The translations under genes and the position numbers were made by a program. Positions 15,710 to 35,237 of a stretch of DNA of 35,237 nucleotides are shown in pieces. The notes under the pieces are model-generated. The model saw only the letters and a list, made by a program, of their open reading frames with translations. It ran no database searches and was not told the DNA's origin. The DNA lies in assembly GCA_020851775.1 (NCBI GenBank), contig JADZCB010000023.1, forward strand, positions 1 to 35,237, in the 5' to 3' direction. This stretch comes from Gammaproteobacteria bacterium (lineage in GTDB: Bacteria; Pseudomonadota; Gammaproteobacteria; Ga0077536). Numbering within the stretch: position 1 is the first letter of the stretch; the number at the start of each line of letters is the position of its first letter.

Positions 15710-18157
15710 TCAGCTCGCGCGCGAGCGCAGCAGTTCACGCCGCGCCGCGCGCACCGGACGCCGCGGCGGCGTGTTGACGATATCGGTGAGTTCCGCCGCA
15801 TTCAGCCCCGCCTCGATGCGTTCGGCCGAGACCGCTTCGTAAGTCGTCGTGCGTTGGCGCGGCACGCGGCCGGCGGCATCGATCATCGCCATCATTTCGC
15901 GCGGCCCCGTCTCCTGGCCATGTTCGGCACCGGCGGCGCGCGTGATGCTCTCGTTCATCAATGTGCCGCCGAGATCATTGACACCCGCCTTCAGGCACGC
16001 CGCGACGCCCAGATGTCCCATCTTGACCCACGACGCCTGGATGTTCGGGATCACCGGATGCAGCGCGAGCCGGGCGACGGCGTGCATCAGCACCGCTTCG
16101 CGGAAGGTCGGGCCGCGCCGCGCGCGTCCCTTCAGATACAGCGGTGCCTCCATGTGCACGAACGGCAGCGGCACGAACTCGGTGAAACCGCCGCTACGCT
16201 GCTGCAGCGTGCGGATGCGCAGCAGGTGCCGCGCCCAGTGCTCGTACCGATCGACGTGGCCGTACATGATCGTCGCCGTCGTGCGGAAACCGACCGCGTG
16301 CGCCGTCTCCATCACTTCGAACCATTGCGCGGTGTTGATCTTGTCGGGACACAGGATGCGCCGCACCTCGTCGTCGAGGACTTCGGCAGCGGTGCCGGGC
16401 AGCGTGCCGAGACCGGCGGCCTTCAGGCGTTCGAGAAACTCGCGCAGCGGCATGCCGAGTGTCGCGGCGCCCTGCCACACTTCGAGCGGCGAGAACGCGT
16501 GCACGTGCATGTCGGGCACGGCGTCCTTCACCATGCGCAGGATGTCGAGGTAAGTCTGCCCGGTGTACTGGGGGTGGATGCCACCCTGCATGCAGACTTC
16601 GGTTGCGCCGCGTGCCCAGGCTTCACGTACGCGGCGTCTGATTTCACTTTCCTCGAGATCATAGGGCTTGCCGCGCAGATCCTCCGACAGCTTGCCTTTC
16701 GAAAACGCGCAGAACTGGCACTTGAAGTAACAGACGTTCGTGTAGTTGATGTTGCGATTGACGACGAAGCTGACGGTGTCGCCGGCGACGGCGGCGCGCA
16801 GTGCATCGGCCGTCTGACACACGTGACTGAAGTCGTCGCCGCGGGCTGCGAAGAGCCGCACGACCTCGCCTTCGTCGAGCGTCTCGCCGCTGGCCGCGCG
16901 GGCGCAGATCGCGACGATGTCGGCACTGACGCGGGTCGGCTGCCGCTCGATCAGATCCAGATCATGCGCCGCCGGCGGCAGGGCCTCGCCCGGCGACCAG
17001 GTGTCGGTGCGCGGCAGTCCGCTGCCGTCGACGCAATCGAGCACCGGCGTGCGGAAGGGTTCGGCGAGCCAGCGGTTGACGTCCTGCGCGTAGCGCGGAT
17101 AGAGCGTCAGGCGTTCGTGCAGCAGCTTGCCGGCCTCGGCACTGGCACGGGCGAGTTCGTCGAGATGCGGCCACGGCGCTTCCGGGTTCACGAAATCCGG
17201 CGTCAGCGGTGATACGCCGCCCCAGTCGTCGATGCCGGCGGCGACGAGTTGCGGCAGCACGCCGGGGCTGAGGTTCGGGGGCGCCTGCACCGACATGCCG
17301 GTGCCGAAGACGATGCGCGTCAACGCGAGCGTCCACAGCATCTCGTCGAGATCGGGTTCCGGCGCCTGCGCCATTTTCGTGTCGGGCTTCGCGCGGAAGT
17401 TCTGGACGATGATTTCCTGGATGTGGCCATACTCGGCGTGCAGCGCGCGGATCGCGAGCAGCGCCTCGACGCGCTCGCGTCGCGTCTCGCCGATGCCGAT
17501 CAGGATGCCGGTCGTGAACGGCACCTGCGCGCGACCCGCCTCGCGCAACGTCGCCAGACGCACGGCCGGCCGTTTGTCCGGCGAGCCGTGATGCGGCTGG
17601 CCCTTGCCGCACAACCGCTCGCTGACGGCTTCGAGCATGATGCCCATGCTCGCCGACACCTCGCGCAGACGCGCGACTTCCGCGGCGTCCAGCGTGCCGG
17701 GATTGAGATGCGGCAGCAGACCCGTGTCGCGGAACACCGCGTCGGCACAGGCGTACAGGTACGCGTGCGTCGACGCATAGCCGTGCCGCGTGAGCCAGTC
17801 GCGCGCCGTCTTGTAGCGGGCTTCCGGCCGCTCGCCGAGCGTGAACAGCGCCTCCTTGCATCCCATCCGTGCGCCGGCGCGCGCCACGTCGAGCACTTCG
17901 TCGAGGCTCATGTACGGTTGCGCGATGCGCTTCGGCGCCTTCGCGAACGTGCAGTAGTGACAGACATCGCGGCACAACTGCGTCAGCGGGATGAAGACTT
18001 TTTTCGAGTAGGTGACGAGATTGCCGAAGCCGGCGTCCCGGATCGTGCCGGCGCTGGCGAGCAGCGCAGTCAGATCGGTGCAGTCGGCGAGGGCGAGGGC
18101 TTCGTCGTCGGTGGGGCATTGCCCGGCGCGGGCACGGGCCAGGATTGCTGCGTTCAT
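15710..18157 (-). CDS. fbiC: FO synthase, fused CofG-CofH (FbiC)
   Basis: A two-domain radical-SAM enzyme of 815 residues that builds the deazaflavin FO, the F420 chromophore, from tyrosine and the flavin precursor 5-amino-6-ribitylaminouracil. The N-terminal CofG half has its cluster motif CRDVCHYC (Cys62, 66, 69). The C-terminal CofH half has CYFKCQFC (Cys476, 480, 483). Both halves look complete, as in actinobacterial FbiC; archaea use two genes. The ATG at 18157 is chosen. A TTG at 18193 directly abuts the cofC stop, would add 12 residues and is a real alternative. It is fourth in the F420 operon. Confidence 0.95.
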   Translation of the reverse strand: MNAAILARARAGQCPTDDEALALADCTDLTALLASAGTIRDAGFGNLVTYSKKVFIPLTQLCRDVCHYCTFAKAPKRIAQPYMSLDEVLDVARAGARMGCKEALFTLGERPEARYKTARDWLTRHGYASTHAYLYACADAVFRDTGLLPHLNPGTLDAAEVARLREVSASMGIMLEAVSERLCGKGQPHHGSPDKRPAVRLATLREAGRAQVPFTTGILIGIGETRRERVEALLAIRALHAEYGHIQEIIVQNFRAKPDTKMAQAPEPDLDEMLWTLALTRIVFGTGMSVQAPPNLSPGVLPQLVAAGIDDWGGVSPLTPDFVNPEAPWPHLDELARASAEAGKLLHERLTLYPRYAQDVNRWLAEPFRTPVLDCVDGSGLPRTDTWSPGEALPPAAHDLDLIERQPTRVSADIVAICARAASGETLDEGEVVRLFAARGDDFSHVCQTADALRAAVAGDTVSFVVNRNINYTNVCYFKCQFCAFSKGKLSEDLRGKPYDLEESEIRRRVREAWARGATEVCMQGGIHPQYTGQTYLDILRMVKDAVPDMHVHAFSPLEVWQGAATLGMPLREFLERLKAAGLGTLPGTAAEVLDDEVRRILCPDKINTAQWFEVMETAHAVGFRTTATIMYGHVDRYEHWARHLLRIRTLQQRSGGFTEFVPLPFVHMEAPLYLKGRARRGPTFREAVLMHAVARLALHPVIPNIQASWVKMGHLGVAACLKAGVNDLGGTLMNESITRAAGAEHGQETGPREMMAMIDAAGRVPRQRTTTYEAVSAERIEAGLNAAELTDIVNTPPRRPVRAARRELLRSRAS

Positions 18158-18193
18158 GCGCGTGGCGTCACTCGGTGTTGGGAGAACGGACAA

Positions 18194-18877
18194 TCAAAGA
18201 TTCCACTGGCCGCCGCTGCTGACGATCGGTCGTGGCTGGAGTCGGGCGGCGACGTCGCGCTCGCACAGGAGCGCACTCGTCGCCGTCGCGCGATCGCAGG
18301 TCAGCAGGCGACGGATGTCTTCGGGGGTATCGACGTCGAGTGCGAGGCCGGGCACCTTCAGCGTCTGCACGCGTGCGCCGAGGGCGAGCGCCGCGTCGCG
18401 GTGCGCGACGAAGCTGTGACGTCCGAAACGGAACGGCATCAGATCCGGCGGCGACACGGCAAGTGCATTGGTGCCATAGCCGTCTTCGTCGGACACCAGC
18501 GTCACGGCCGGCGCCCAACCGTGCTTCGCAATCACGAAGTCCACTTCGGCGCTGGTCGCGAGCGGAACGTCGGTCGGCAGTACGAGCATGGCGCCCTGCT
18601 CGCGGGCGACGAGTACGCGTGCCGCCTGTGCCACCGAGTTCGACAGGCCCGGCTGTGCCTCATCGAGTACCTCGGCACCACAGATCGCGGCGAGGTTCGC
18701 CACGCCTGCTTCGCGCGTGACACACAGGACACCGCTGACGCGCGTACAGTGCGCGAGCAGCGTGAACAGATCGTGCAGCATCGCCTGCGCGAGTGCCGCC
18801 CGCTCGCCGTCGCTCAGCAGGCCGGCAAGGCGGCGCTTGGCGTATGCGAACGGCTTGACGGGAACCACTACCCACAC
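18194..18877 (-). CDS. cofC: CofC/FbiD-family guanylyltransferase (F420 side chain)
   Basis: CofC activates a three-carbon phosphoacid with GTP, giving the dinucleotide donor that CofD transfers to FO. The protein is 227 residues with a nucleotidyltransferase fold: N-terminal WVVVPVKPFAYAKRRL with the basic KRRL at 14-17, and the metal-binding LPTDVPL at 100-106. The start is a GTG at 18877 with AGAGG about 10 bases upstream. The natural substrate may be 2-phospholactate, phosphoenolpyruvate or 3-phosphoglycerate; all three are known in the family and the sequence alone does not tell. It lies 37 bases after cofD and directly abuts or nearly abuts the FO synthase. Confidence 0.9.
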   Translation of the reverse strand: MWVVVPVKPFAYAKRRLAGLLSDGERAALAQAMLHDLFTLLAHCTRVSGVLCVTREAGVANLAAICGAEVLDEAQPGLSNSVAQAARVLVAREQGAMLVLPTDVPLATSAEVDFVIAKHGWAPAVTLVSDEDGYGTNALAVSPPDLMPFRFGRHSFVAHRDAALALGARVQTLKVPGLALDVDTPEDIRRLLTCDRATATSALLCERDVAARLQPRPIVSSGGQWNL

Positions 18878-18914
18878 GGTCGGGTGCCTCTGCGAAGAAC
18901 AGTGATCGACGTCA

Positions 18915-19886
18915 TCATCGCCGCTTCACGCTTGCGCGCAGTTCGCGCACGAATTCGATGACGATGGTGGCCAGCCGCAACTTGTCGTCGAACGTTAGCA
19001 TGACGGTGGGGGCCGCGATAGCCGCCGGACCGGCGTCGCCGAACGTCTCGAGCAGCGATGCATCCTGCAGATCGATCACGAAACCGTCGAGCAGATCGCC
19101 ATAGTGTGCCGCGACGGCGGGCGCGGTCGACGGCACCTTCAATTCCGCCATCATTTTCGCCGTCGGTCCCTTCAGCGCGAGACCGGCGACGATCGGCGAC
19201 ACCGCGACGACGGGGGCGACACTCGCGCGCAACGCCGCGCGAATTTCCGGCACGGCGAGGATCGGATCGATGCTGACGTAGGGATTCGACGGACACAGGA
19301 TGATCCCGGTCAGATCCGGTGCGGCGAGCAGATCCAACACGGCGACCGGGGCTTTTGCCGTGCCGGCGCCGGCGAATTCGAACCCGGTGACGTCCGGCAC
19401 GCAGCGCTCGCGGACGAAGTAATGCTGGAACGCGAGCGGACCGTGCGTCGTATGCACGATCGTCGCGACCGGATCGTCGCTCATCGGCCAGATCGCGTGA
19501 CGCGTGCCGAGCGCCGCGTTCAGCTCGCGCGTCACGCACGACAACGAAGCACCCGCCCGCAGTCGCACCGTGCGCTGGACGTGCACGGCGAGATCGCGAT
19601 CGCCGAGCGCGAACCAGCCTTCACCGCCGAGTTCGCGCAAGGTCTCGATGAACTGCCAGGTCTCACCGCGCCGCCCCCAGCCGGTATCGGGGTTCGACAC
19701 GTCGGCGAGCGCGTACATCAGCGAATCGAGATCGGGCGCGACGTGCAGCCCGAGATGTTCGAAGTCGTCACCGGTGTTGACGAGGAACGACAGCTCGTCC
19801 GGGCCGAGCACCGCGGCGAGACCGACGGCCAGCTTTGCGCCGCCGACGCCGCCGGTGAGCGCAAGAAAACGATCGCCGCGGCTCAT
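18915..19886 (-). CDS. cofD: 2-phospho-L-lactate transferase (FO transferase)
   Basis: CofD (FbiA) transfers the phosphoacid from the guanylylated donor to FO, giving F420-0 or its dehydro form. The 323-residue length is close to characterised enzymes. N-terminal LALTGGVGGAKLAVGL has the glycine loop at 12-16 and Lys18; NTGDD at 37-41 and the ILCPSNPYVSIDPIL segment are family signatures of the nucleotide and FO site. Its start overlaps the cofE stop by 4 bases (ATGA), a sign of translational coupling. Confidence 0.95.
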   Translation of the reverse strand: MSRGDRFLALTGGVGGAKLAVGLAAVLGPDELSFLVNTGDDFEHLGLHVAPDLDSLMYALADVSNPDTGWGRRGETWQFIETLRELGGEGWFALGDRDLAVHVQRTVRLRAGASLSCVTRELNAALGTRHAIWPMSDDPVATIVHTTHGPLAFQHYFVRERCVPDVTGFEFAGAGTAKAPVAVLDLLAAPDLTGIILCPSNPYVSIDPILAVPEIRAALRASVAPVVAVSPIVAGLALKGPTAKMMAELKVPSTAPAVAAHYGDLLDGFVIDLQDASLLETFGDAGPAAIAAPTVMLTFDDKLRLATIVIEFVRELRASVKRR

Positions 19887-20653
19887 CGGAACATGTCTTC
19901 CGCGAGCGGGCGGATGATGTCGCGCGCCGTCTGCGCGGTGGGCTGCCAGGGCAGGCCCCGGATCAGCACCGCCGGCGTGCGCTGGACGCTTTCCCCCATC
20001 AGCAGCGTCGCCGCCGCGGCGAGTGAATCGGCGCGGTTGATCACCGTCACCTTCAACTCGCGACCATAGGCGTCACCGGTGCCGCGCAGATCATCGAGCA
20101 CCTGGAGCCCATGACAACCGATGGCGCCGCCGACGGTGCCGAGCCGCCACGCGCGGTTCATGCTGTCGGCGATGATCACGGCGAGGCGCCGTCCGGTCAG
20201 CGCGAACAGCGCCTCGTGCAGACGCCGCGCGGACGCGTCCGGATCGACCGGCAACAGCAATGCGGCTTCACCGTCCGCGTGATCGACATTCGACTGATCG
20301 ATGCCCGCATGCGCGCCGACATTGCCGAGGCGGTGACGGACGAGCAGCATGCCGGGCCGCTTGCGCAGCAGTTCGCTCGACTCGTCGAGGATCAACTGCA
20401 CGAGCCGCGGATCCTTGTCGGTTTCGGCCGCGAGTTCGATTGCACGCGCCGACGGCGTCACATCCGCGAGCCGCACGAGGCGGCCTTCGGCTTTCGAGAC
20501 GATCTTCTGCGCGAGCACCAGGACGTCGCCGTCGACGGGTTCGAGCGCGAGCCGGCGCAGCGCGGCATCGAGCAGCGCGGCGAGATCGTCGCCCTGCTCG
20601 ATCATCGGGATCCCGGGCAATACGTGCAGGCTCAGATCGGCACGGGTGCTCAT
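19883..20653 (-). CDS. cofE: Coenzyme F420-0:L-glutamate ligase
   Basis: CofE adds gamma-linked glutamates to F420-0 with GTP. From the ATG at 20653 (AGGA 7 bases upstream) the protein is 256 residues, the single-domain CofE length. It lacks the C-terminal FMN reductase domain that mycobacterial FbiB carries. The frame remains open to 20857, but the extra N-terminal residues are not family-like. Motifs include LAQKIVSKAEGR, IDQSNVDHADGE and IADSMNRAWRLGTVGGAIGC. It is the first gene of the F420 operon. Without the FbiB extension, reduction of dehydro-F420-0 would need another protein if phosphoenolpyruvate is the CofC substrate. Confidence 0.93.
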   Translation of the reverse strand: MSTRADLSLHVLPGIPMIEQGDDLAALLDAALRRLALEPVDGDVLVLAQKIVSKAEGRLVRLADVTPSARAIELAAETDKDPRLVQLILDESSELLRKRPGMLLVRHRLGNVGAHAGIDQSNVDHADGEAALLLPVDPDASARRLHEALFALTGRRLAVIIADSMNRAWRLGTVGGAIGCHGLQVLDDLRGTGDAYGRELKVTVINRADSLAAAATLLMGESVQRTPAVLIRGLPWQPTAQTARDIIRPLAEDMFR

Positions 20654-20942
20654 GCGCTTGTCCTGGTTCCTCGGGCGGGGCATCGGTCGCCCGCCCTTCG
20701 CTCGATGTCGTTGGCGATGTTCCCCGGTCGGGGGGTCGTGCAGTACCATCGCGCTAATTCTGAGGCGCCGCGCCTCGAAATTCATTGTACCGGTAAGTTG
20801 CGACGAGAGGAGAGGTCGCCCGCCGCCCCTTCCACCCTGTCCGTCGGGTCGACGCACCCGGGGTTGCAGGTGGCCGGCCCGCGCCTCCGCCCGCTCACCG
20901 TGCGTCCGCCGTCAGACCCGCCATCAGGAGGAAGGACCATCC
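20654..20942. promoter_or_regulatory. Divergent control region between the F420 operon and the acyl-CoA cluster
   Basis: These 289 bases should carry promoters for cofE (minus) and the SDR (plus). A near-perfect palindrome, GAGGCGC-C-GCGCCTC at 20762-20776, lies next to an AT-richer stretch (AAATTCATTGTACC). It is a good candidate operator for a dimeric regulator. A strong AGGAGG with GAAGGA at 20926-20936 precedes the SDR start. I could not assign -35/-10 boxes confidently. Confidence 0.45.
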
Positions 20943-21854
20943 ATGGGCATGCTCGCAGACAAAGTCGTTCTCATCACCGGCGCCGGCCGGGGTATCGGCC
21001 GCGATTTTGCGCTGCACTGCGCCGCCGCCGGCGCGGCCGTCGTCGTCAATGATCTCGGTGTCACCGCCGATGGCAGCGCGGCCGAGGGCAGCCCGGCCGA
21101 ACAGGTCGTCGAGGAAATTCGCGCGGGCGGCGGGCGTGCGGTCGCGAATCACGGCAGCGTCGCCAGCCCGGGCGATGCCGAGGCGATGGTGCGGCAGGCG
21201 GTCGATGTCTTCGGCCAGCTCGACGGCGTGATCAACAACGCCGGCATCCTGCGCGATCGCATCTTCCACAAGATGTCGATCGAGGAATGGGACATCGTCA
21301 TCAACGTGCACTTGAACGGCTGCTTCTATGTCAGCCGCGCCGCCGCCGATCACTTCCGGGAGCGCGAAGGCGGCAGCTTCGTCCACATGACCTCGGCGTC
21401 CGGCCTCGTCGGCAACTTCGGGCAGGCGAACTATTCGGCGGCGAAGCTCGGCATCGTCGCCTTGTCGAAATCGATTGCGCTGGACATGGGGCGCTTCAAC
21501 GTGCGCTCGAACTGCATCGCGCCGTTCGCGTGGACGCGGATGACCAACACGATCCCGGCGCGCAACGAGGCCGAGATCGCACGCGTCCGCCGCCTGCAAC
21601 AAATGACACCGGACAAGATCGCGCCGATGGCGGTCTACCTGCTCGCGGACGCCGCCCACGACGTCAATGCGCAGGTGTTCGGGGTGCGCAACAATGAAAT
21701 CTTCCTGCTGAACCAGCCGCGTCCGGTACGCTCGATCCACCGCGGCGAAGGCTGGACGCCGGAGACTATCGCCGAGCACGCGATTCCGGCGCTGAAATCG
21801 AGTTTCATGGACCTCGCGCGTTCGCCCGACGTGTGGTCCTGGGATCCCGTCTGA
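20943..21854 (+). CDS. SDR-family 3-hydroxyacyl-CoA dehydrogenase-like protein (MFE-2 N-domain type)
   Basis: A 303-residue short-chain dehydrogenase. The cofactor motif TGAGRGIG is at 12-19, NNAG at 98-101, the catalytic Ser near 151-153 (TSASG) and YSAAK at 164-168 (Tyr164, Lys168). The insertion VNDLGVTADGSAAEGSPAEQ after the second strand is typical of the multifunctional enzyme type 2 / HSD17B4 dehydrogenase domain, which oxidises (R)-3-hydroxyacyl-CoAs. The ATG at 20943 has a strong ribosome-binding site. It is the first gene of the plus-strand acyl-CoA cluster, 31 bases before the next gene. The long upstream frame is antisense to cofE. Confidence 0.88.
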   Translation: MGMLADKVVLITGAGRGIGRDFALHCAAAGAAVVVNDLGVTADGSAAEGSPAEQVVEEIRAGGGRAVANHGSVASPGDAEAMVRQAVDVFGQLDGVINNAGILRDRIFHKMSIEEWDIVINVHLNGCFYVSRAAADHFREREGGSFVHMTSASGLVGNFGQANYSAAKLGIVALSKSIALDMGRFNVRSNCIAPFAWTRMTNTIPARNEAEIARVRRLQQMTPDKIAPMAVYLLADAAHDVNAQVFGVRNNEIFLLNQPRPVRSIHRGEGWTPETIAEHAIPALKSSFMDLARSPDVWSWDPV

Positions 21855-21885: not shown

Positions 21886-23577
21886 ATGAGTCCATCCCCT
21901 GTCCCGGACGCGTCGCCGTCCGCCATTGCCGACGGCCTCGCGCTGCACGCACGGCTCGACACCTTCGTCACCACAGCGTGGGGTCGTCTGCGCGGCTGCA
22001 TCGAACACGATGCGACGCTCGTCGACGGCCTCGACGACGCGCAGGTCGTCAGTTACGAACTCGTGTTCGCGAGCGCCGAACTGCACGCGATGCGCGAGAT
22101 GCTCGGCTACGCACAGGCCTGCACGGCCACCGCTGCCGCCGAACTCGAGATCACGCTCGCGCTCGCATTCGCGGCAGATGCGACGGTCAAGATTCGCCAG
22201 CGCATCGACCGGGTGCGTCACGCGATCGGGATCGACAGCGCCGGCTACTGTGCCGTATTCGAGCAGGCGGATCTCCTCGACTTCTGCCGCCGCTGGCTCG
22301 CCCCGGCGCATCTCGCGGCGACCGGCGGCCGCCTGCTGGCGGCCGGCGCCTGCGGCCGCTCGCTGCTGCCCGAGGACAAGCAGATCATCGCCGCGAGCTT
22401 CGCGCGGGTCGCCGACGAAGTCGTCGCCCCGCTCGCCGAGAAGATCCATCGCGAAGATCTGACGATCCCCGACGAGATCCTGCGCGAGATCGCCGACATG
22501 GGCTGTTTCGCGCTGTCGATTCCGGAACGCTTCGGCGGTACCGCGCCGGATGGCGGCCACGACAATCTCGCGATGGTCGTCGTCACCGAGGAACTTTCGC
22601 GCGGTTCGCTCGCCGCGGCCGGCAGCCCGCTGACGCGGCCGGAGATCATGGCGCGCGCGCTGCTCGCCGGCGGCGATCACGATCAGTTGGCGAAGTGGCT
22701 GCCCGGCGTCGCCCAGGGGGCGCCGCTGTGCGCGATCGCGGTGACCGAACCCGACTGCGGCTCGGACGTCGCCGCGGTGCGCCTGAAGGCGACGCAGACC
22801 GCCGGCGGCTGGCTGCTGAACGGCGCCAAGACCTGGTGCACGTTCGCCGGCAAGGCCGGGCTGGTCCTCGTTCTCGCCCGCACGAACCCGGAGGCCGGGG
22901 CCGGCCACCGGGGACTTTCGCTGTTCCTGCTCGAAAAGCCGTCGACCGACGAACATGCGTTCGAATTCAGACAGCCTGGTGGCGGCACGCTGTCCGGCAA
23001 GGCCATCCCGACGCTCGGCTACCGCGGCATGCATTCGTACACGCTGTTCTTCGACAACGTGTTCGTCCCCGCCGACAACCTCGTCGGCGGGCCGGGTGCC
23101 GAAGGCAAGGGTTTCTACCTGACGATGGCGGGTTTCGCCGGCGGCCGGCTGCAGACCGCGGCGCGCGCCTGCGGACTGATGCGCGCGGCCTTCGACGCCG
23201 CGGCGCGCTATGCCCAGGAGCGCAAGGTCTTCGGCAAGCGACTCGCCGACTATCAGCTCACGCTCGCGAAACTCGCGCTGCTCGGCGCCAGTCTGCGCGC
23301 CTGCCGTGAGATGACCTATCACGTCGCGCGCCTGATGGACGAAGGCCAGGGCCAGATGGAAGCGAGCCTGGTCAAGCTTTATGCGTGCCGCGCGGCCGAG
23401 CAGCTCACGCGCGAGGCGCTGCAGATCCATGGCGGCATGGGTTATTCGGAGGAAACGGCGGTCAGTCGCTACTTCGTCGATGCGCGCGTGCTGTCGATCT
23501 TCGAAGGCGCGGAAGAGACGCTGGCCCTGAAGGTCGTCGCGCGCGAGAAGCTCGCGACGGTGCGCGGCATCGTCTGA
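21886..23577 (+). CDS. (2S)-methylsuccinyl-CoA dehydrogenase-like acyl-CoA dehydrogenase
   Basis: A 563-residue acyl-CoA dehydrogenase with an N-terminal extension of about 160 residues before the usual fold. This architecture and length match Mcd (about 550 residues) of the ethylmalonyl-CoA pathway, which oxidises (2S)-methylsuccinyl-CoA to mesaconyl-C1-CoA. Internal motifs resemble Mcd: MVVVTEELSRG, TEPDCGSD, LGYRGM, RLQTAARA and SRYFVDARVLSIFEGA. The Glu of IFEG (Glu540) is at the catalytic-base position of medium-chain dehydrogenases. The next gene is Mct-like, acting on the same product, which strengthens the call. A different branched dicarboxyl-CoA is possible. It lacks the other ethylmalonyl-CoA pathway genes nearby. 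Confidence 0.68.
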   Translation: MSPSPVPDASPSAIADGLALHARLDTFVTTAWGRLRGCIEHDATLVDGLDDAQVVSYELVFASAELHAMREMLGYAQACTATAAAELEITLALAFAADATVKIRQRIDRVRHAIGIDSAGYCAVFEQADLLDFCRRWLAPAHLAATGGRLLAAGACGRSLLPEDKQIIAASFARVADEVVAPLAEKIHREDLTIPDEILREIADMGCFALSIPERFGGTAPDGGHDNLAMVVVTEELSRGSLAAAGSPLTRPEIMARALLAGGDHDQLAKWLPGVAQGAPLCAIAVTEPDCGSDVAAVRLKATQTAGGWLLNGAKTWCTFAGKAGLVLVLARTNPEAGAGHRGLSLFLLEKPSTDEHAFEFRQPGGGTLSGKAIPTLGYRGMHSYTLFFDNVFVPADNLVGGPGAEGKGFYLTMAGFAGGRLQTAARACGLMRAAFDAAARYAQERKVFGKRLADYQLTLAKLALLGASLRACREMTYHVARLMDEGQGQMEASLVKLYACRAAEQLTREALQIHGGMGYSEETAVSRYFVDARVLSIFEGAEETLALKVVAREKLATVRGIV

Positions 23578-23698
23578 CACCGCGCCCGCGCGACCGCCGC
23601 CCGGGTACGGATCCCGTGGATGCGGATCCGGCGCGAGTGGCAGACAATCGCGTTCGGCGCCGGTTGCGGCGGACACGACATCACGGTATCGAGTGACG

Positions 23699-23718
23699 GC
23701 CGCGCATGCCTGCGCGGC
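23699..23718 (+). promoter_or_regulatory. Hairpin immediately upstream of the mct ribosome-binding site
   Basis: A perfect 8-bp inverted repeat, GCCGCGCA-TGCC-TGCGCGGC, forms a tetraloop hairpin. It ends 5 bases before the AAGGAG of the next gene, so folding could tune initiation or mark an mRNA processing point. No T-run follows, so a terminator is unlikely. It lies in the 159-base gap after the dehydrogenase gene. Confidence 0.4.
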
Positions 23719-23736
23719 GCGAAGGAGAACTGAACC

Positions 23737-24966
23737 ATGCAGAATCTGCTGCAGGGGCTGCGCATCGTCGAGGCCTCGGCCTTCATCGCCGCGCCGATGT
23801 GCGGCATGACACTCGCCCAACTCGGCGCCGACGTGATCCGCTTCGATCAGATCGGCGGCGGCATCGACTATCGGCGCTGGCCCGTCACCCGCGACAACGA
23901 CAGCATCTACTGGGCCGATCTGAATAAGGGCAAACGTTCGTTGTGCGTCGATCTGCGCAGCGCTGAAGGTCGCAGCCTCGTCACGCGGCTGATCGCGCTG
24001 CCGGGCCCCGACGGCGGCATCATGTCGACGAACCTGCCGGCGAAAGGCTGGCTCGACTACGCGACGCTCTGCACGCATCGCGCCGATCTGATCCAGCTCG
24101 CGATCGTCGGCGATCGCCACGGCGGCACGGCGGTCGACTACACCGTCAATGCGAAAGTCGGCTATCCGTATCTGACGGGGCCGGAAGACGACGAGCGGCC
24201 CGTCAATCACGTGCTGCCGGCCTGGGACATCGCCGCCGCGCTGCTCGCCGCGACCAGTCTGCTGACGGCGCTGCGCTTTCGCGATCGCAGCGGACGCGGC
24301 CAGCGCATCGACATGTCGCTCGCCGATGTCGCGCTCGCGGCCGTCGGCCATCTCGGCTACGTCGGCGAGCGCAAGATCAACGGAGTCGAACGCACACGCG
24401 GCGGAAATTATCTCTACGGCGCCTTCGGTCGCGACTTCGTCGCCGGCGACGGCGCGCGCCTCATGGTGATGGCGATCAGCCCGAAGATGTGGAGCGGATT
24501 GCTCGCCGCGACGGGCCTGAAGGAGGCGATGGCGGTGCTCGGCGCCCGCCTCGGCCTCGATCTCGACCAGGAGGGCAACCGCTATCTCGCGCGTCGCGAG
24601 ATCGCCGATGTCCTCGCCGATCATCTCGCGACGCGCCCGCTCGCCGACATCGCCGCCGCGTTCGATGCCAACGGCGTGTGCTGGGGGCGTTACCAGTCGA
24701 TCGCCGATCTGATCGACACGGATCCCGACTGCTCGCCCGCCAACCCGATCTACCATCTCGTCGAACAGCCCGATATCGGCACCTATCCGGTACCCGGACA
24801 ACCGATGCACTTCGGTGCCGTCACGCGGGCGCCGGCACGCCGCGCGCCGCGGCTCGGCGAGCACACGGACGAAATCCTGGCCGATCTGCTCGGCATGAGC
24901 AGCGGCGAGATCGGCCGGCTGCACGACGCGGGCATCGTCGCCGGCCCGCGCGCAGCCCGCGCCTGA
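23737..24966 (+). CDS. mct: 2-methylfumaryl-CoA isomerase-like (mesaconyl-CoA C1-C4 CoA transferase, Mct)
   Basis: A 409-residue family III CoA-transferase that closely resembles Chloroflexus aurantiacus Mct as I recall it. Mct moves CoA within one molecule, turning mesaconyl-C1-CoA (2-methylfumaryl-CoA) into mesaconyl-C4-CoA in the 3-hydroxypropionate bicycle. Shared features are GLRIVEASAFIAAPMCGMTL, the GGGIDYRRWPVT loop, VNHVLPAWDI with the catalytic-position Asp164, NYLYGAFGRDF and LGEHTDEIL. Ordinary family III enzymes, such as the one at 14433-15644, lack these. AAGGAG lies 9 bases before the ATG. It sits between the Mcd-like gene and a kinase on the same strand. Biochemical role is inferred. 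Confidence 0.82.
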   Translation: MQNLLQGLRIVEASAFIAAPMCGMTLAQLGADVIRFDQIGGGIDYRRWPVTRDNDSIYWADLNKGKRSLCVDLRSAEGRSLVTRLIALPGPDGGIMSTNLPAKGWLDYATLCTHRADLIQLAIVGDRHGGTAVDYTVNAKVGYPYLTGPEDDERPVNHVLPAWDIAAALLAATSLLTALRFRDRSGRGQRIDMSLADVALAAVGHLGYVGERKINGVERTRGGNYLYGAFGRDFVAGDGARLMVMAISPKMWSGLLAATGLKEAMAVLGARLGLDLDQEGNRYLARREIADVLADHLATRPLADIAAAFDANGVCWGRYQSIADLIDTDPDCSPANPIYHLVEQPDIGTYPVPGQPMHFGAVTRAPARRAPRLGEHTDEILADLLGMSSGEIGRLHDAGIVAGPRAARA

Positions 24967-25011: not shown

Positions 25012-26091
25012 ATGAGTCATACACGCCAGGAAAAGTTCTCCGGGACCAAGCAGGTCGAACCGCATCTGCAACTCGATGCCGGCCGCCTCGAGGCCTATCT
25101 GAAGACCGTCGTCCCGGACTACGCAGGCCCGCTCGAACTGCGCCGCTTCAAGGGCGGCCAGTCGAATCCGACCTACCAGCTCGTCACCGGCAACCGCAAC
25201 TACGTCCTGCGGCGCAAGCCACCGGGGCCGCTGCTGCCATCGGCGCACGCCGTCGATCGCGAGTATCAGGTGATCAAGGCGCTGTCCGACGTCGGCTTCC
25301 CGGTGCCCCGGCCCTATGCGCTGTGCACCGACGAGTCGGTGATCGGCACGATGTTCTACGTGATGGAGATGATCGAAGGCCGCGTGCTGTGGGAAATGTC
25401 GTTGCCGGGCATGACGCCGGCCGAACGCGCGCAGATCTACGACGCCAAGGTCACCACGCTCGCCCAGTTGCAGAAGATCGACTACAGGGCCGTGGGACTC
25501 GAGAGTTTCGGCAAGCCGACGGACTACTTCGCGCGCCAGATCACACGCTGGACGAAGAACTACGTCGCCTCCGAAACCGTTAAGATCGATCTGATGGATA
25601 GACTCAATGCGTGGCTGCCCGCGAACATTCCGCACGACGACGCGGTGTCGATCGTCCATGGTGACTACCGCATGGACAACATGATCTTCCATCCGACCGA
25701 ACCGCGCGTCATCGCCGTGCTCGACTGGGAGTTGTCGACGATCGGCCATCCGCTCGGCGATTTCACCTATCACCTGCTGCCGTGGTTGCTGCCGCAGATG
25801 GGCGAGCGCATCAGCACCCTCGGCGGACTGGATCTGCCGGCGCTCGGCATTCCGAGCGAGGAGGAATACATCGCGCGCTATTGCGCGCTGGTCGGCCGCC
25901 GCAACATCCCTGGCATCGACTATTACCGGGCGTACACGCTGTGGCGGCTCGCCGCGATCTACCAGGGGATCATCAAGCGCGTAGAGGAAGGTACGGCGGC
26001 GAACGAACACGCCGAAACCAGCCCCGAACTGGTGAAGACCATCGCCGCGATCGCATGGGACTATGCCCGCAAGCACGGTGCGCCGGCCTGA
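25012..26091 (+). CDS. ACAD10/11-type phosphotransferase (aminoglycoside kinase fold)
   Basis: A 359-residue protein-kinase-like phosphotransferase of the branch that forms the N-terminal domain of animal ACAD10/ACAD11. The fold signatures are GGQSNPTYQL (glycine-rich, 48-57), the ATP-site lysine in LRRKP (Lys69), HGDYRMDN (216-223, Asp218 catalytic) and VLDWELSTIG (metal-binding Asp238). In the levulinate pathway and ACAD11, such kinases phosphorylate 4-hydroxyacyl-CoAs so a dehydrogenase-fold partner can remove phosphate. Two acyl-CoA dehydrogenase genes follow, 20 bases downstream, in line with that role. An antibiotic kinase is unlikely given the neighbours. Confidence 0.85.
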   Translation: MSHTRQEKFSGTKQVEPHLQLDAGRLEAYLKTVVPDYAGPLELRRFKGGQSNPTYQLVTGNRNYVLRRKPPGPLLPSAHAVDREYQVIKALSDVGFPVPRPYALCTDESVIGTMFYVMEMIEGRVLWEMSLPGMTPAERAQIYDAKVTTLAQLQKIDYRAVGLESFGKPTDYFARQITRWTKNYVASETVKIDLMDRLNAWLPANIPHDDAVSIVHGDYRMDNMIFHPTEPRVIAVLDWELSTIGHPLGDFTYHLLPWLLPQMGERISTLGGLDLPALGIPSEEEYIARYCALVGRRNIPGIDYYRAYTLWRLAAIYQGIIKRVEEGTAANEHAETSPELVKTIAAIAWDYARKHGAPA

Positions 26092-26110
26092 AACGCACCT
26101 GGAGACTCCG

Positions 26111-27274
26111 ATGCTGAACCTCGACAGTCTGCGTTTTCCGCGCCACGCACTGCCGTCCGCGCTGGAAGACCTGCGCCGCGAGGTGCGGGCCTTTCTCGCG
26201 GACGCACTCGTGCCCTACTCCGCCGTCGTCCGCAGCAACACCTGGGACGGTTTCGATCCCGAATTCAGCCGCAAGCTCGGCGCGCGCGGCTGGCTCGGCA
26301 TGGCGCTGCCGAAGCAGTACGGCGGCCACGAACGTTCGGCGCTCGAGCGCTACGTCGTCGTCGAGGAGACGCTCGCCGCCGGCGCGCCGGTCGGTTTTCA
26401 CTGGATCGCCGATCGCCAGAGCGGCCCGGTGATCGCCCGTTACGGCACCGACGAGCAGAAACGGCGCATCATCCCGGGCATCGCGAACGGCGAAATCTGT
26501 TTCTGCATCGGCATGAGCGAGCCGAATTCCGGGTCCGATCTCGCCTCGGTACGCAGCCGCGCCGAGCGTGTCGCCGACGGCTGGTGCGTCAACGGCACCA
26601 AGATCTGGACCACGAATGCGCATCGTGCCGACTACATGATCGCGCTGTTGCGCACCGACAGCGGCGGCGAGAGCAAGCATCGCGGCCTGTCGCAGTTCCT
26701 GATCGATCTGAAGCACACCAAGGGCATCACGGCGCGGCCGATCCGCGATCTGACCGGGCGCGGTCACTTCAACGAGGTGGTGTTCCAGGATGCGCTGCTG
26801 CCGGCCGACGCGCTGCTCGGCACGGAAGGCGAAGGCTGGAAGCAGGCCACCGCCGAACTCGCCTTCGAGCGCAGCGGCCCCGAGCGCTATCTGTCGTGCT
26901 TCCTGCTGTTGAGCAGGCTCGTCGACGAAGTCAGGGATCATGCGAGTCCGGCGACCCTCGCCAAGATCGGCGCCGAAGTGGCGTGGGCGGCGACGCTGCG
27001 CAACATGTCGCTGGCGGTCGCCGGCATGCTGAACGAGGGCATCGATCCGGGACTGCAGGCGGCGATCGTCAAGGATCTCGGCTGCCAGTTCGAGCAGCGC
27101 CTGCCGGGTCTCGCACAGGAACTCGTCGCGCTCGAGCCGACGCTCGCCGGCAGCGGCAGCGATTATCAACAGGTGCTCGGCAATCTCACGCAGCTCGCAC
27201 CGTCGTTCTCGTTGCGCGGGGGCACGCTCGAAATTCTGCGCGGCATCATCGCGCGCGGCCTGGGGGTCCGATGA
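26111..27274 (+). CDS. Acyl-CoA dehydrogenase, first subunit
   Basis: A 387-residue acyl-CoA dehydrogenase starting at an ATG with GGAG 6 bases upstream. The FAD-contacting SEPNSGSD is at 136-143. The position of the medium-chain catalytic Glu is a Gly here (LRGGTLEI). A Glu at 253 in ELAFERSG fits the alternative catalytic position of isovaleryl- and long-chain dehydrogenases. It overlaps the next dehydrogenase gene by 4 bases (ATGA at 27271), so they are likely one heteromeric enzyme, as in the alpha2beta2 FadE pairs of sterol degradation. It may act with the preceding kinase. Confidence 0.88.
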   Translation: MLNLDSLRFPRHALPSALEDLRREVRAFLADALVPYSAVVRSNTWDGFDPEFSRKLGARGWLGMALPKQYGGHERSALERYVVVEETLAAGAPVGFHWIADRQSGPVIARYGTDEQKRRIIPGIANGEICFCIGMSEPNSGSDLASVRSRAERVADGWCVNGTKIWTTNAHRADYMIALLRTDSGGESKHRGLSQFLIDLKHTKGITARPIRDLTGRGHFNEVVFQDALLPADALLGTEGEGWKQATAELAFERSGPERYLSCFLLLSRLVDEVRDHASPATLAKIGAEVAWAATLRNMSLAVAGMLNEGIDPGLQAAIVKDLGCQFEQRLPGLAQELVALEPTLAGSGSDYQQVLGNLTQLAPSFSLRGGTLEILRGIIARGLGVR

Positions 27275-28311
27275 ACGAACTGCAACAGATACTCGACGAC
27301 AGCGTCACGCGGCTGTTCGCCGCGCGCGTCGATCGTGAATTCCTGACCGCGACCGAGGAAGCCGGGTTTTCCGCCGATCTGTGGTCGCTCGCGCGGGAAC
27401 AAGGCCTCACCCATGTGCTCGTCAGCGAACAGGGCGGCGGCATGAATGCCGGCTGGGCGGATGCCTACGTCGTCGTGCGCGCCTGCGGACGCTATGCCGT
27501 GCCGCTGCCGATCCCGGAGACGATGCTCGGCCTGTGGCTGCTCGAGCGTGCCGGCGCCCCACCCGTCGATGGCGTGATCGGTCTCCTGCCCGTCCCGATC
27601 GCACTCGCTGTCGACGGCACGTTCAGCGGCGACATGCCGCGCGTGCCGTGGGGACGCGACGCGACGGCCTTCGTCGGCACGACCGACGACGGGCGCCTGG
27701 TCTGTTTCGACACCTCCGCGATCGCGATCCGCGAGGATTCGAACCTCGCGCGCGAACCGCGCGACGACGTGCGCTTCGAGCGCGCGCGGCCGCTCGCGTT
27801 GCAGCCGCTCGATCTCCCGCTGGACGCCGTCCACTGGTTCGGCGCGCTGCTGCGCTCGGCACAGATCGCCGGCGCCGCCGCCGGCTGTCTCGAACTGTCG
27901 GTTCGCTACACCTCCGAGCGCGAGCAGTTCGGACGTCTCCTGTCGCAGTTCCAGGCAATTCAGCATCATCTCGCCGAACTCGCCGGCGGCATGGCGTCGG
28001 TCGACACCATCGCCCATGCCGCATTCACGGCGGTCGACGACGACGGCTTCCGAACCGGTGGCCGCGATGCACGCTTCGAAATCGCCGCGGCCAAATGCCG
28101 CGCGAGTGAAGCGGTCGAGATGCTGACGCGGATCAGCCACCAGGTGCACGGAGCGATCGGTTTCACGTACGAATACGCGCTGCAGTTCCTGACGCGCCGC
28201 CTGTGGTCGTGGCGCGCGGAATTCGGCGCCCATGGCCAATGGGGCGAAGTGCTCGGCCGCACCGCCATCGAGCAGGGCGGGGATCGCCTGTGGGCCTGCA
28301 TCACCAACTGA
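27271..28311 (+). CDS. Acyl-CoA dehydrogenase, second (divergent) subunit
   Basis: A 346-residue protein of the acyl-CoA dehydrogenase fold, more divergent than its partner. The N-terminal half lacks the usual SEPxxGSD FAD motif. The C-terminal half keeps YTSEREQFGRLLSQFQAIQHHLAEL and QVHGAIGFTYEY, the flavin-binding helices. Heteromeric dehydrogenases typically pair one such weak subunit with a canonical one, and the 4-base overlap with the upstream gene supports that. It ends 55 bases before the enoyl-CoA hydratase-family gene. On its own it might not be catalytic. Confidence 0.85.
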   Translation: MNELQQILDDSVTRLFAARVDREFLTATEEAGFSADLWSLAREQGLTHVLVSEQGGGMNAGWADAYVVVRACGRYAVPLPIPETMLGLWLLERAGAPPVDGVIGLLPVPIALAVDGTFSGDMPRVPWGRDATAFVGTTDDGRLVCFDTSAIAIREDSNLAREPRDDVRFERARPLALQPLDLPLDAVHWFGALLRSAQIAGAAAGCLELSVRYTSEREQFGRLLSQFQAIQHHLAELAGGMASVDTIAHAAFTAVDDDGFRTGGRDARFEIAAAKCRASEAVEMLTRISHQVHGAIGFTYEYALQFLTRRLWSWRAEFGAHGQWGEVLGRTAIEQGGDRLWACITN

Positions 28312-33584: not shown

Positions 33585-35237
33585 TTATTGCCCGGTCATC
33601 GCCGCCGCCGTTGCCTTTTTCGCCTGCCGCCTGATGTAGTGGTGAATGGCATTCAGATCGGCGTCGGACATTTCCTTGAACTGCGGCATGCCCTGCAGGC
33701 GGCGGCTGCCGCCGATGACGATTTCCTTGAAGGCTTCCGGGTACAGCGGCGCCTGCGAGGCGCGGAGATCCGGCGCGTAGCCGCCGGCGACCGCGCCACC
33801 GCCGTGGCAGCTCGCGCAGTTGCGCGAGAACAGGAAGCTGCCCGTCTCGGCCTGCAGTTCATCGACCTTGAAATCCTCCTGCACCAGCGGCTCGGCGAAG
33901 CTCGGTGGCGGTGCTTTCGGCAGCTTCGTGTCCGCATCGAGGGCGAACACGACGAGCCGGCGCGGATGCAGGCCGTAGCGCCAGCCGTGCTGCGCCGTGA
34001 TCGCGCCGACCATCGACGCGGCCGCACCGCCCCAGCCGGCGAGCAGCGCGACGTACTGTCTGCCGTCGACTTCATAGGTGATCGGCGGTGCCGAGATGCC
34101 GACACCCATGTCGAACATCCACAGCGGCAGGCCGTCCGTCGCGCGATAGGCGACGAGCTTGCCGTCGGTACGACCCTGGAAGACGAGATTGCCGGCCGTC
34201 GTCAACGTGCCGCCATTCCATGTGCCCGGCAGCTTCTGCTCCCATACCTTCTGCTGCTTGACCGGATCCCAGGCGAGCAGGCTCGCCGCATCTATCTTGA
34301 TCGGCAGATCCTCGCGCAGCAGATCGACACCCGGATCGAACGCGAAGCTCGGTGACTTCCACTCCTCCGGCTGCTTGATCGTCTTGTCGGTGAAGTTCGC
34401 CGGCAGATCGTGCTTCGGGATGTAGACGAGCCCGGTGTTCGGATTGAACGACATCGCATGCCAGTTGTGCACGCCGAGCGGCCCGGGCCATACCAGCTCC
34501 TCACCGTCGCCATAGCGCGCGTCCGGATTCTCGACCGGCCGCCCCGTCGCGAGATCGACGTGCGTGGCCCAGCTCACCTTGCCGATCTTCTCGGCCGACA
34601 ACAGCTTGCCGGTCGCGCGATCGATCACGTAGAAGAACCCATTCTTCGGCGCGTGCAACATGGCCTTTACCGGCTTGCCGTCGATCTCGAGATCGGCGAG
34701 CACCATGTCCATGTTCGAGTTGTAGTCCCAGGTCTCGCCGGGCACGGTCTGGTAGTGCCAGGCATATTTCCCGGTATCGGCGTCGAGGGCGACGACCGCG
34801 CACAGGAACAGATTGTCACCGCCGCCGGGACTTCTGATCTTCTGATTCCATGGCGAGCCGTTGCCGGTGCCGATGTAGACGCGGTTGAATTCCGGATCGT
34901 AGGTGAGCCCGTTCCATACCGTGCCGCCGCCGCCGTGCTCCCACCACTTGCCATGCCAGGTCTTCGCGGCCATGGCCTGGGCCTCGTCCTCGAATCCGTC
35001 CGCCGGATTGCCCGGCACGGTGTAGAAGCGCCAGACCTGCTTGCCGGTCGCGGTATCGTAGGCCGTCACGTAGCCGCGCAGTCCACCCCACTCGGTGCCG
35101 CCGTTGCCGATGATCACCTTGTCGTTGAATACCCGCGGCGCCCCGTTGATGAAGTAGGCGAGCTTCGGATCGACCGTCATCACGCTCCAGACTTCCTGGC
35201 CGGTCGTCGCGTCGATCGCGTTCAGACGCCCGTCGCC
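33585..35237 (-). CDS. PQQ-dependent alcohol dehydrogenase, quinohaemoprotein type (5' end outside window)
   Basis: The 3' part of a periplasmic quinohaemoprotein dehydrogenase that oxidises alcohols with PQQ and passes electrons through its own haem c. The visible 550 residues cover most of the eight-bladed propeller. They include repeat-type motifs such as NAIDATTGQEVWSV, the metal-site Asn in TGNGSPWN and the catalytic Asp of ETWDYN (codon 34725-34727). The C-terminal cytochrome c domain has CASCH and a candidate Met ligand in GMPQF. The residue two after the catalytic Asp is Asn, not the Asp seen in lanthanide-dependent enzymes, which favours calcium. The frame is open to the window edge, so the signal peptide and N-terminus are missing. 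Confidence 0.95.
   Translation of the reverse strand, partial: GDGRLNAIDATTGQEVWSVMTVDPKLAYFINGAPRVFNDKVIIGNGGTEWGGLRGYVTAYDTATGKQVWRFYTVPGNPADGFEDEAQAMAAKTWHGKWWEHGGGGTVWNGLTYDPEFNRVYIGTGNGSPWNQKIRSPGGGDNLFLCAVVALDADTGKYAWHYQTVPGETWDYNSNMDMVLADLEIDGKPVKAMLHAPKNGFFYVIDRATGKLLSAEKIGKVSWATHVDLATGRPVENPDARYGDGEELVWPGPLGVHNWHAMSFNPNTGLVYIPKHDLPANFTDKTIKQPEEWKSPSFAFDPGVDLLREDLPIKIDAASLLAWDPVKQQKVWEQKLPGTWNGGTLTTAGNLVFQGRTDGKLVAYRATDGLPLWMFDMGVGISAPPITYEVDGRQYVALLAGWGGAAASMVGAITAQHGWRYGLHPRRLVVFALDADTKLPKAPPPSFAEPLVQEDFKVDELQAETGSFLFSRNCASCHGGGAVAGGYAPDLRASQAPLYPEAFKEIVIGGSRRLQGMPQFKEMSDADLNAIHHYIRRQAKKATAAAMTGQ

Follow-up and report, generated by a model that had tools for sequence, protein, structure and literature searches.

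A 35,237-nucleotide stretch of DNA (hereafter the window; contig 23, JADZCB010000023.1, of the draft genome GCA_020851775.1 of a gammaproteobacterium of lineage Ga0077536, 3.4 Mb, 90.6% complete) encodes side by side a relative of methylsuccinyl-coenzyme A (CoA) dehydrogenase (Mcd) and a relative of mesaconyl-CoA C1-C4 transferase (Mct, 2-methylfumaryl-CoA isomerase). Judged from sequence and from the recurrence of the pair in many other bacteria, the two enzymes probably carry methylsuccinyl-CoA via mesaconyl-C1-CoA to mesaconyl-C4-CoA, a short catabolic segment that would connect the ethylmalonyl-CoA pathway, to which Mcd belongs, with the 3-hydroxypropionate bi-cycle, to which Mct belongs. 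The genes themselves are real: both open reading frames are intact, lie on the same strand (Table 1) and have the codon composition of real genes. The neighbouring genes and their families had been proposed in an earlier note on this DNA, together with the statement that no described pathway joins Mcd and Mct directly. The family assignments were upheld by matches to solved Mcd (8ciw, 6es9) and Mct (7xkg, 8apq) structures, and no pathway joining the two enzymes was found in the open-licence papers searched; the interpretation as a whole is partly supported. Mcd and Mct are both known as enzymes, while the variant joining them, undescribed in that literature, is probably new.

The acyl-CoA dehydrogenase domains of the 563-residue protein occupy residues 163-552, so that an N-terminal extension of about 160 residues precedes them. 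A sequence search against solved structures gave 566 bits with 8ciw, a (2S)-methylsuccinyl-CoA dehydrogenase from Pseudomonas migulae, and 298 bits with 6es9, the Mcd of Paracoccus denitrificans; the next enzyme scored 222. Over aligned columns the identities are 55% and 45%, respectively. The predicted model of the protein (mean pLDDT 81) was then compared with solved structures. It superimposed on 8ciw with Z 47.0 over 546 residues and on 6es9 with Z 41.4 over 528 residues, the extension included in both cases. The alignment begins at model residue 6 for 8ciw and at residue 5 for 6es9, as against about residue 155 for nearly all other dehydrogenases, and only the two solved Mcd structures match the model over its full length. 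According to its title, 8ciw contains bound (2S)-methylsuccinyl-CoA; no paper describing it was found in the literature searched. The published active site of Paracoccus Mcd comprises the base Glu535, Arg252, Arg376, Arg421, Ser248 and Thr418, with A285/F287 forming the methyl pocket (PMC5798300). Glu535 and the three arginines correspond to E540, R251, R380 and R427 of the window protein, and Ser248 and Thr418 are likewise kept. The base and the three arginines, which bind the carboxylate, are conserved in all clades. In a tree of these enzymes, built by a quick method, group A contains Paracoccus, and the window falls in group B together with 8ciw, Accumulibacter, marine gammaproteobacteria and catabolic plasmids. 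The window protein is thus placed with 8ciw and in a clade different from that of the Paracoccus enzyme. In Accumulibacter the group-B gene is clustered with genes for an acyl-CoA mutase and MeaB and with a mesaconyl-CoA-hydratase-type (mch) gene, a context which independently supports methylsuccinyl-CoA as the group-B substrate. On its sequence and model, the 563-residue protein is a homologue of Mcd from a second Mcd clade, with methylsuccinyl-CoA as its predicted substrate.

The 409-residue transferase belongs to PF02515 (family III CoA transferase). Among solved relatives, the Mct structures 7xkg and 8apq scored 505 and 492 bits and the next family 95 bits; the protein shares 55% identity with each of the two Mct structures. 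Its residues D164, R47, Y135 and I43 correspond to D165, R47, Y136 and L43 of Chloroflexus Mct, and Asp165, Arg47, Tyr136 and Asn100 (Mct numbering) are invariant among the 85 homologues counted. In Mct, Arg47 occupies the space of the glycine loop, and Leu or Ile at position 43 is common to known intramolecular CoA transferases (PMC9813914), a rule that I43 satisfies. The cork residues of Mct, Arg75, Phe101 and Arg104, are kept only in the first case (R74); the other two are changed, to L100 and K103. In the Mct tree, the window protein falls in a 50-row clade (SH-aLRT 93) in which most loci carry Mcd. The sister clade holds the Chloroflexus, Roseiflexus and Accumulibacter enzymes, so that characterised Mct was found next to the window's clade rather than within it. 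Because of this sister position and a family-model score under its cut-off (given below), the protein is named Mct-like; from its residues it probably works like Mct. The predicted model of the transferase had a mean pLDDT of 64 and was not used; the low confidence is perhaps due to the interlocked dimer of the known enzyme.

Outside the window's family, 74 Mct loci of named genomes were compared: a Mcd homologue occurs in the fetched stretch of 26 of these, and in 20 the Mcd gene shares the strand of Mct and is no more than 2 kb away. The two genes overlap or are separated by 0-3 bp in loci L064, L077, L087, L098 and L121. Since this operon order recurs in distant Pseudomonadota, spanning alpha-, beta- and gammaproteobacteria, the pairing is beyond chance. 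As Mct had served to collect most of the loci, pairing would appear more frequent than it is; the rate was therefore checked in an unselected sample of 369 genomes of the class, where 9 genomes had Mcd, 7 had Mct and 6 had both. Outside the family, all three Mct genomes of this sample (two of them from one genus) have Mcd, which occurs in 6 among 365 (hypergeometric probability about 2.5e-6, computed by hand). Plasmid records found through the Mcd clade gave a similar picture, Mct adjoining Mcd in three of four (Variovorax SRS16, Paraburkholderia D15 and pAKD34). The two proteins have diverged in a correlated manner (r 0.82, a value that none of 2000 permutations reached), although shared ancestry alone can produce the same. 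Of the 36 genomes in the window's family, 30 have Mct and 18 have Mcd, and every one of those 18 also has Mct.

The explanation that we favour, and hold to be somewhat more likely than not, takes methylsuccinyl-CoA through these two enzymes and then through a hydratase and a lyase to acetyl-CoA and pyruvate. The dehydrogenase would oxidise (2S)-methylsuccinyl-C1-CoA to mesaconyl-C1-CoA, using FAD and passing electrons to electron-transfer flavoprotein. The transferase would shift CoA intramolecularly from C1 to C4, by way of an Asp164 anhydride and an Asp164-CoA intermediate, to give mesaconyl-C4-CoA. A MaoC hydratase encoded elsewhere in the genome would then form citramalyl-CoA, and citramalyl-CoA lyase would release acetyl-CoA and pyruvate. 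Mcd would be used here catabolically, apart from the ethylmalonyl-CoA pathway, on methylsuccinyl-CoA supplied by the breakdown of methyl-branched dicarboxylates or methyl-aromatics.

An exit through citramalyl-CoA had been suggested in the earlier note, and it finds its counterpart in four lineages outside the family. In these, the Mcd-Mct cluster also holds a citrate-lyase-beta-type CoA-ester lyase of the citramalyl-CoA-lyase type and a homologue of mesaconyl-C4-CoA hydratase (Meh), a label that denotes sequence kinship with genes found next to mct-mcl-mch clusters of Chloroflexi. Marinobacter litoralis (L092) carries on one strand the Meh homologue, lyase, thiolase, Mcd, a short-chain dehydrogenase/reductase (SDR), MaoC and Mct. 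The Nevskia cluster (L098) consists of the Meh homologue, lyase, Mcd and Mct, and that of Oleiphilus (L068) of a mutase, Mcd, Mct, the Meh homologue and the lyase. In Paraburkholderia D15 (L151) the Meh homologue and CoA ester lyase are accompanied by electron-transfer flavoprotein genes, Mcd, Mct and an acetyl-CoA-hydrolase/transferase-type gene. Within the window there is neither a MaoC hydratase nor an HpcH-type lyase, as had been noted before, and all matches lie on other contigs of the genome. On contig C249, a MaoC gene overlaps that of a CLYBL-like lyase, whose best solved relative is human CLYBL; this pair also gave weak matches, below cut-off, to RipB/Ich and RipC/Ccl. Contig C24 encodes an MC_hydratase-like MaoC about 51% identical to the hydratase adjoining Mct in Actinobacteria and one myxococcal genome; in eight family genomes this type lies within 19 kb of Mct. 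The C24 operon (L181, 364-10510) further encodes a small protein, an alpha/beta hydrolase, an acyl-CoA dehydrogenase, an aldehyde dehydrogenase and a family III CoA transferase. The lyase on contig C341 is 47-49% identical to the lyase adjoining Mct in Rhodoplanes and 37% identical to malyl-CoA-lyase-type genes adjoining Mct in 3-hydroxypropionate clusters. By sequence, the enzymes of C249, C24 and C341 are candidate exit enzymes in the window's own genome.

As to the origin of methylsuccinyl-CoA, ccr (crotonyl-CoA carboxylase/reductase) exceeded the TIGR01751 cut-off in none of the 36 family genomes, and no close ecm was found, the best mutase being only 39% identical to the ecm-type mutase of Accumulibacter. 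The ethylmalonyl-CoA pathway is therefore rejected, the window's Mcd-like gene standing outside the gene set of that pathway, and methylsuccinyl-CoA must come from elsewhere. The autotrophic 3-hydroxypropionate bi-cycle, whose second cycle has Meh together with Mct, was likewise rejected on the absence of Meh from the window's genome; its first-cycle genes were not searched. Ortho-cleavage of 4-methylcatechol leads to methylsuccinyl-CoA and acetyl-CoA, the former being the stated end product, with its later fate not given (PMC6449761). From the chemistry of the thiolysis in this route, we infer that CoA would be left at C1, the form used by Mcd. The Variovorax pair lies near ring-hydroxylating dioxygenase genes and that of Paraburkholderia D15 near an intradiol dioxygenase gene; the company of the window operon is of branched-chain beta-oxidation types, not aromatic-ring dioxygenases.

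Two known systems invite comparison. In the itaconate cluster of pseudomonads, an (RS)-methylsuccinyl-C4-CoA dehydrogenase makes mesaconyl-C4-CoA directly (PMC12290011, PMC9875883); since this enzyme acts on the C4 thioester, no Mct is needed there, whereas the window has a C1-type Mcd followed by Mct. None of Ict, Ich, Ccl, a C4-type dehydrogenase and Msi was seen among the window genes scanned, no dedicated cluster test having been made. In anaerobic naphthalene degradation, ThnO/ThnT and ThnP are likewise an acyl-CoA dehydrogenase and an intramolecular CoA transferase encoded together; however, ThnP is a family I transferase and works on a cyclohexane diacid, and there the CoA is transferred before oxidation takes place (PMC11659651).

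Several observations weigh against the route proposed. The top NCBIfam model for the transferase, TIGR04253 (2-methylfumaryl-CoA isomerase), scored 521.8 bits, under its cut-off of 725, and the protein is therefore not filed as an equivalog of that enzyme but only as Mct-like. Cork residue Phe101 of Mct is Leu throughout the window's family. In the dehydrogenase, the C2-methyl pocket A285/F287 of the Paracoccus enzyme is replaced by I284/V286; substrate-bound 8ciw has I/I at these sites, and most members of the Accumulibacter-Oleiphilus group have I/V. A Meh homologue was not found in the window's genome by a search that was positive in four control genomes. The SDR, kinase, tandem dehydrogenases and crotonase of the operon suggest the breakdown of longer branched acyl-CoA and are unexplained by a short route. 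Finally, 12 of the 30 family genomes with Mct are without Mcd, and in them Mct persists beside MaoC, SDR, kinase and dehydrogenases; these genomes must therefore have another source of mesaconyl-CoA, or use Mct on another diacid or for another job. Because of this persistence our confidence is only moderate and other explanations stay alive.

It may be that Mct acts on methylsuccinyl-C4-CoA, or on mesaconyl-C4-CoA of other source, to yield the C1 thioester, from which Mcd and a mesaconyl-CoA hydratase of the C1 type would lead through methylmalyl-CoA to propionyl-CoA and glyoxylate. We consider this unlikely. The transfer is mechanistically reversible (PMC9813914), Mct without Mcd would be accounted for, and both the C24 hydratase, with its place near Mct in relatives, and the kinship of the C341 lyase to malyl-CoA-lyase-type genes are in its favour. 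Sphingobium TomTYG74 offers a further parallel: a plasmid stretch of 19.5 kb holds a same-clade Mcd together with mch, citE and alpha-methylacyl-CoA racemase annotations (L153, 4069-10563) and no annotated Mct, and is probably a variant ending in propionyl-CoA and glyoxylate. As this very cluster illustrates, simple hydration of mesaconyl-C1-CoA needs no Mct; yet Mct stays beside Mcd, with a C4-type hydratase homologue in the four lineages described above.

Degradation of isoprenoids or sterols could instead supply the substrate, an alpha-methyl dicarboxylyl-CoA of larger size that would be desaturated beside the methyl branch, after which CoA would be moved to the other carboxyl and beta-oxidation resumed. 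The branched-chain beta-oxidation neighbours (HSD17B4-like SDR, MFE-2-type MaoC, FadE26/27-like dehydrogenases and, in marine relatives, an SCPx-type thiolase) point in this direction, as do the Leu at Phe101 and the precedent of ThnO and ThnP on a bulky diacid. However, the active-site residues of the dehydrogenase are identical to those of Accumulibacter Mcd from the mutase cluster and nearly identical to those of 8ciw with methylsuccinyl-CoA bound, and the carboxylate residues Arg47 and Tyr136 of Mct are invariant, which makes a larger substrate quite improbable. That the two genes are mere neighbours in a catabolic island, without a common substrate, might be read from the family genomes keeping Mct alone and from the collection of loci through Mct, but it is very hard to reconcile with the minimal gaps and overlaps, the independently found plasmid pairs, the correlated divergence and the constant company of Mct in family genomes with Mcd.

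Returning to the route through mesaconyl-C4-CoA, we see an even chance that it is widespread: an undescribed aerobic route of Pseudomonadota from methylsuccinyl-C1-CoA to acetyl-CoA and pyruvate, recruiting Mcd from the ethylmalonyl-CoA pathway and a relative of Mct from the 3-hydroxypropionate bi-cycle, and a drain for methylsuccinyl-CoA from methyl-aromatics (the 4-methyl-3-oxoadipate pathway) and branched diacids. If so, the pair would supply the missing step after methylsuccinyl-CoA in 4-methylcatechol ortho-cleavage (PMC6449761), a rare enzyme type of CO2 fixation would become a common catabolic one, and a concrete role would be at hand for those heterotroph CoA transferases that at present carry the annotation 2-methylfumaryl-CoA isomerase. 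Caution is also indicated in genome annotation: mct or mcd alone is insufficient to call the 3-hydroxypropionate bi-cycle or the ethylmalonyl-CoA pathway.

Table 1. Features of the window, with positions in the 35,237-nucleotide stretch
Feature	Position	Strand	Basis
Second family III CoA transferase, formyl-CoA/succinate-glutarate type, 405 aa	14436-15650	-	
F420 biosynthesis genes: radical-SAM CofG/CofH-like fusion, CofC, CofD, CofE	15713-20857	-	
SDR, 3-hydroxyacyl-CoA-dehydrogenase type, 303 aa (operon gene 1)	20943-21854	+	SDR family match
Mcd-like acyl-CoA dehydrogenase with N-terminal extension, 563 aa	21886-23577	+	search, tree, residues, model
Gap between Mcd-like and Mct-like genes, 159 bp	23578-23736	+	
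Mct-like family III CoA transferase, 409 aa	23737-24966	+	search, tree, residues; PMC9813914
APH-fold kinase, kin of ACAD11 kinase domain, 359 aa	25012-26091	+	8v3v, 1.7e-83
Acyl-CoA dehydrogenase, first of tandem pair, FadE26/27-like	26111-27274	+	
Acyl-CoA dehydrogenase, second of tandem pair, 4-bp overlap with preceding gene	27271-28311	+	family f15 in relatives
Crotonase-fold enoyl-CoA hydratase/isomerase, 268 aa	28367-29173	+	
PQQ-dependent alcohol-dehydrogenase-type beta-propeller with cytochrome c domain	33588-35183	-	

The pair forms part of a seven-gene operon that begins with the SDR gene and ends with the crotonase gene (Table 1). The SDR is 57-63% identical to those of the Mcd-Mct operons in L092, L106, L124 and L132. 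In several relatives the gap between Mcd and Mct is filled by one or two MaoC genes of the MFE-2 hydratase type. The close relatives L036, L038 and L055 have two such genes there, absent from the window, and contig C360 of the window's own genome encodes a MaoC 70% identical to these intergenic ones. The kinase gene adjoining Mct is a conserved arrangement in the family. Together with the acyl-CoA dehydrogenase gene next to it (25012-27274, forward strand), it resembles the two halves of ACAD11. Kinase/dehydrogenase pairs of the ACAD11 type convert 4-hydroxyacyl-CoA via a phosphate ester; therefore, by analogy, the possible substrates of the operon may include 4-hydroxy acids.

Upstream of the operon and divergent from it lie the F420 biosynthesis genes, and this neighbourhood is kept in nearly all family genomes examined. 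The window also encodes a second family III CoA transferase and, towards its far end, a beta-propeller protein of the pyrroloquinoline quinone (PQQ)-dependent alcohol dehydrogenase type.

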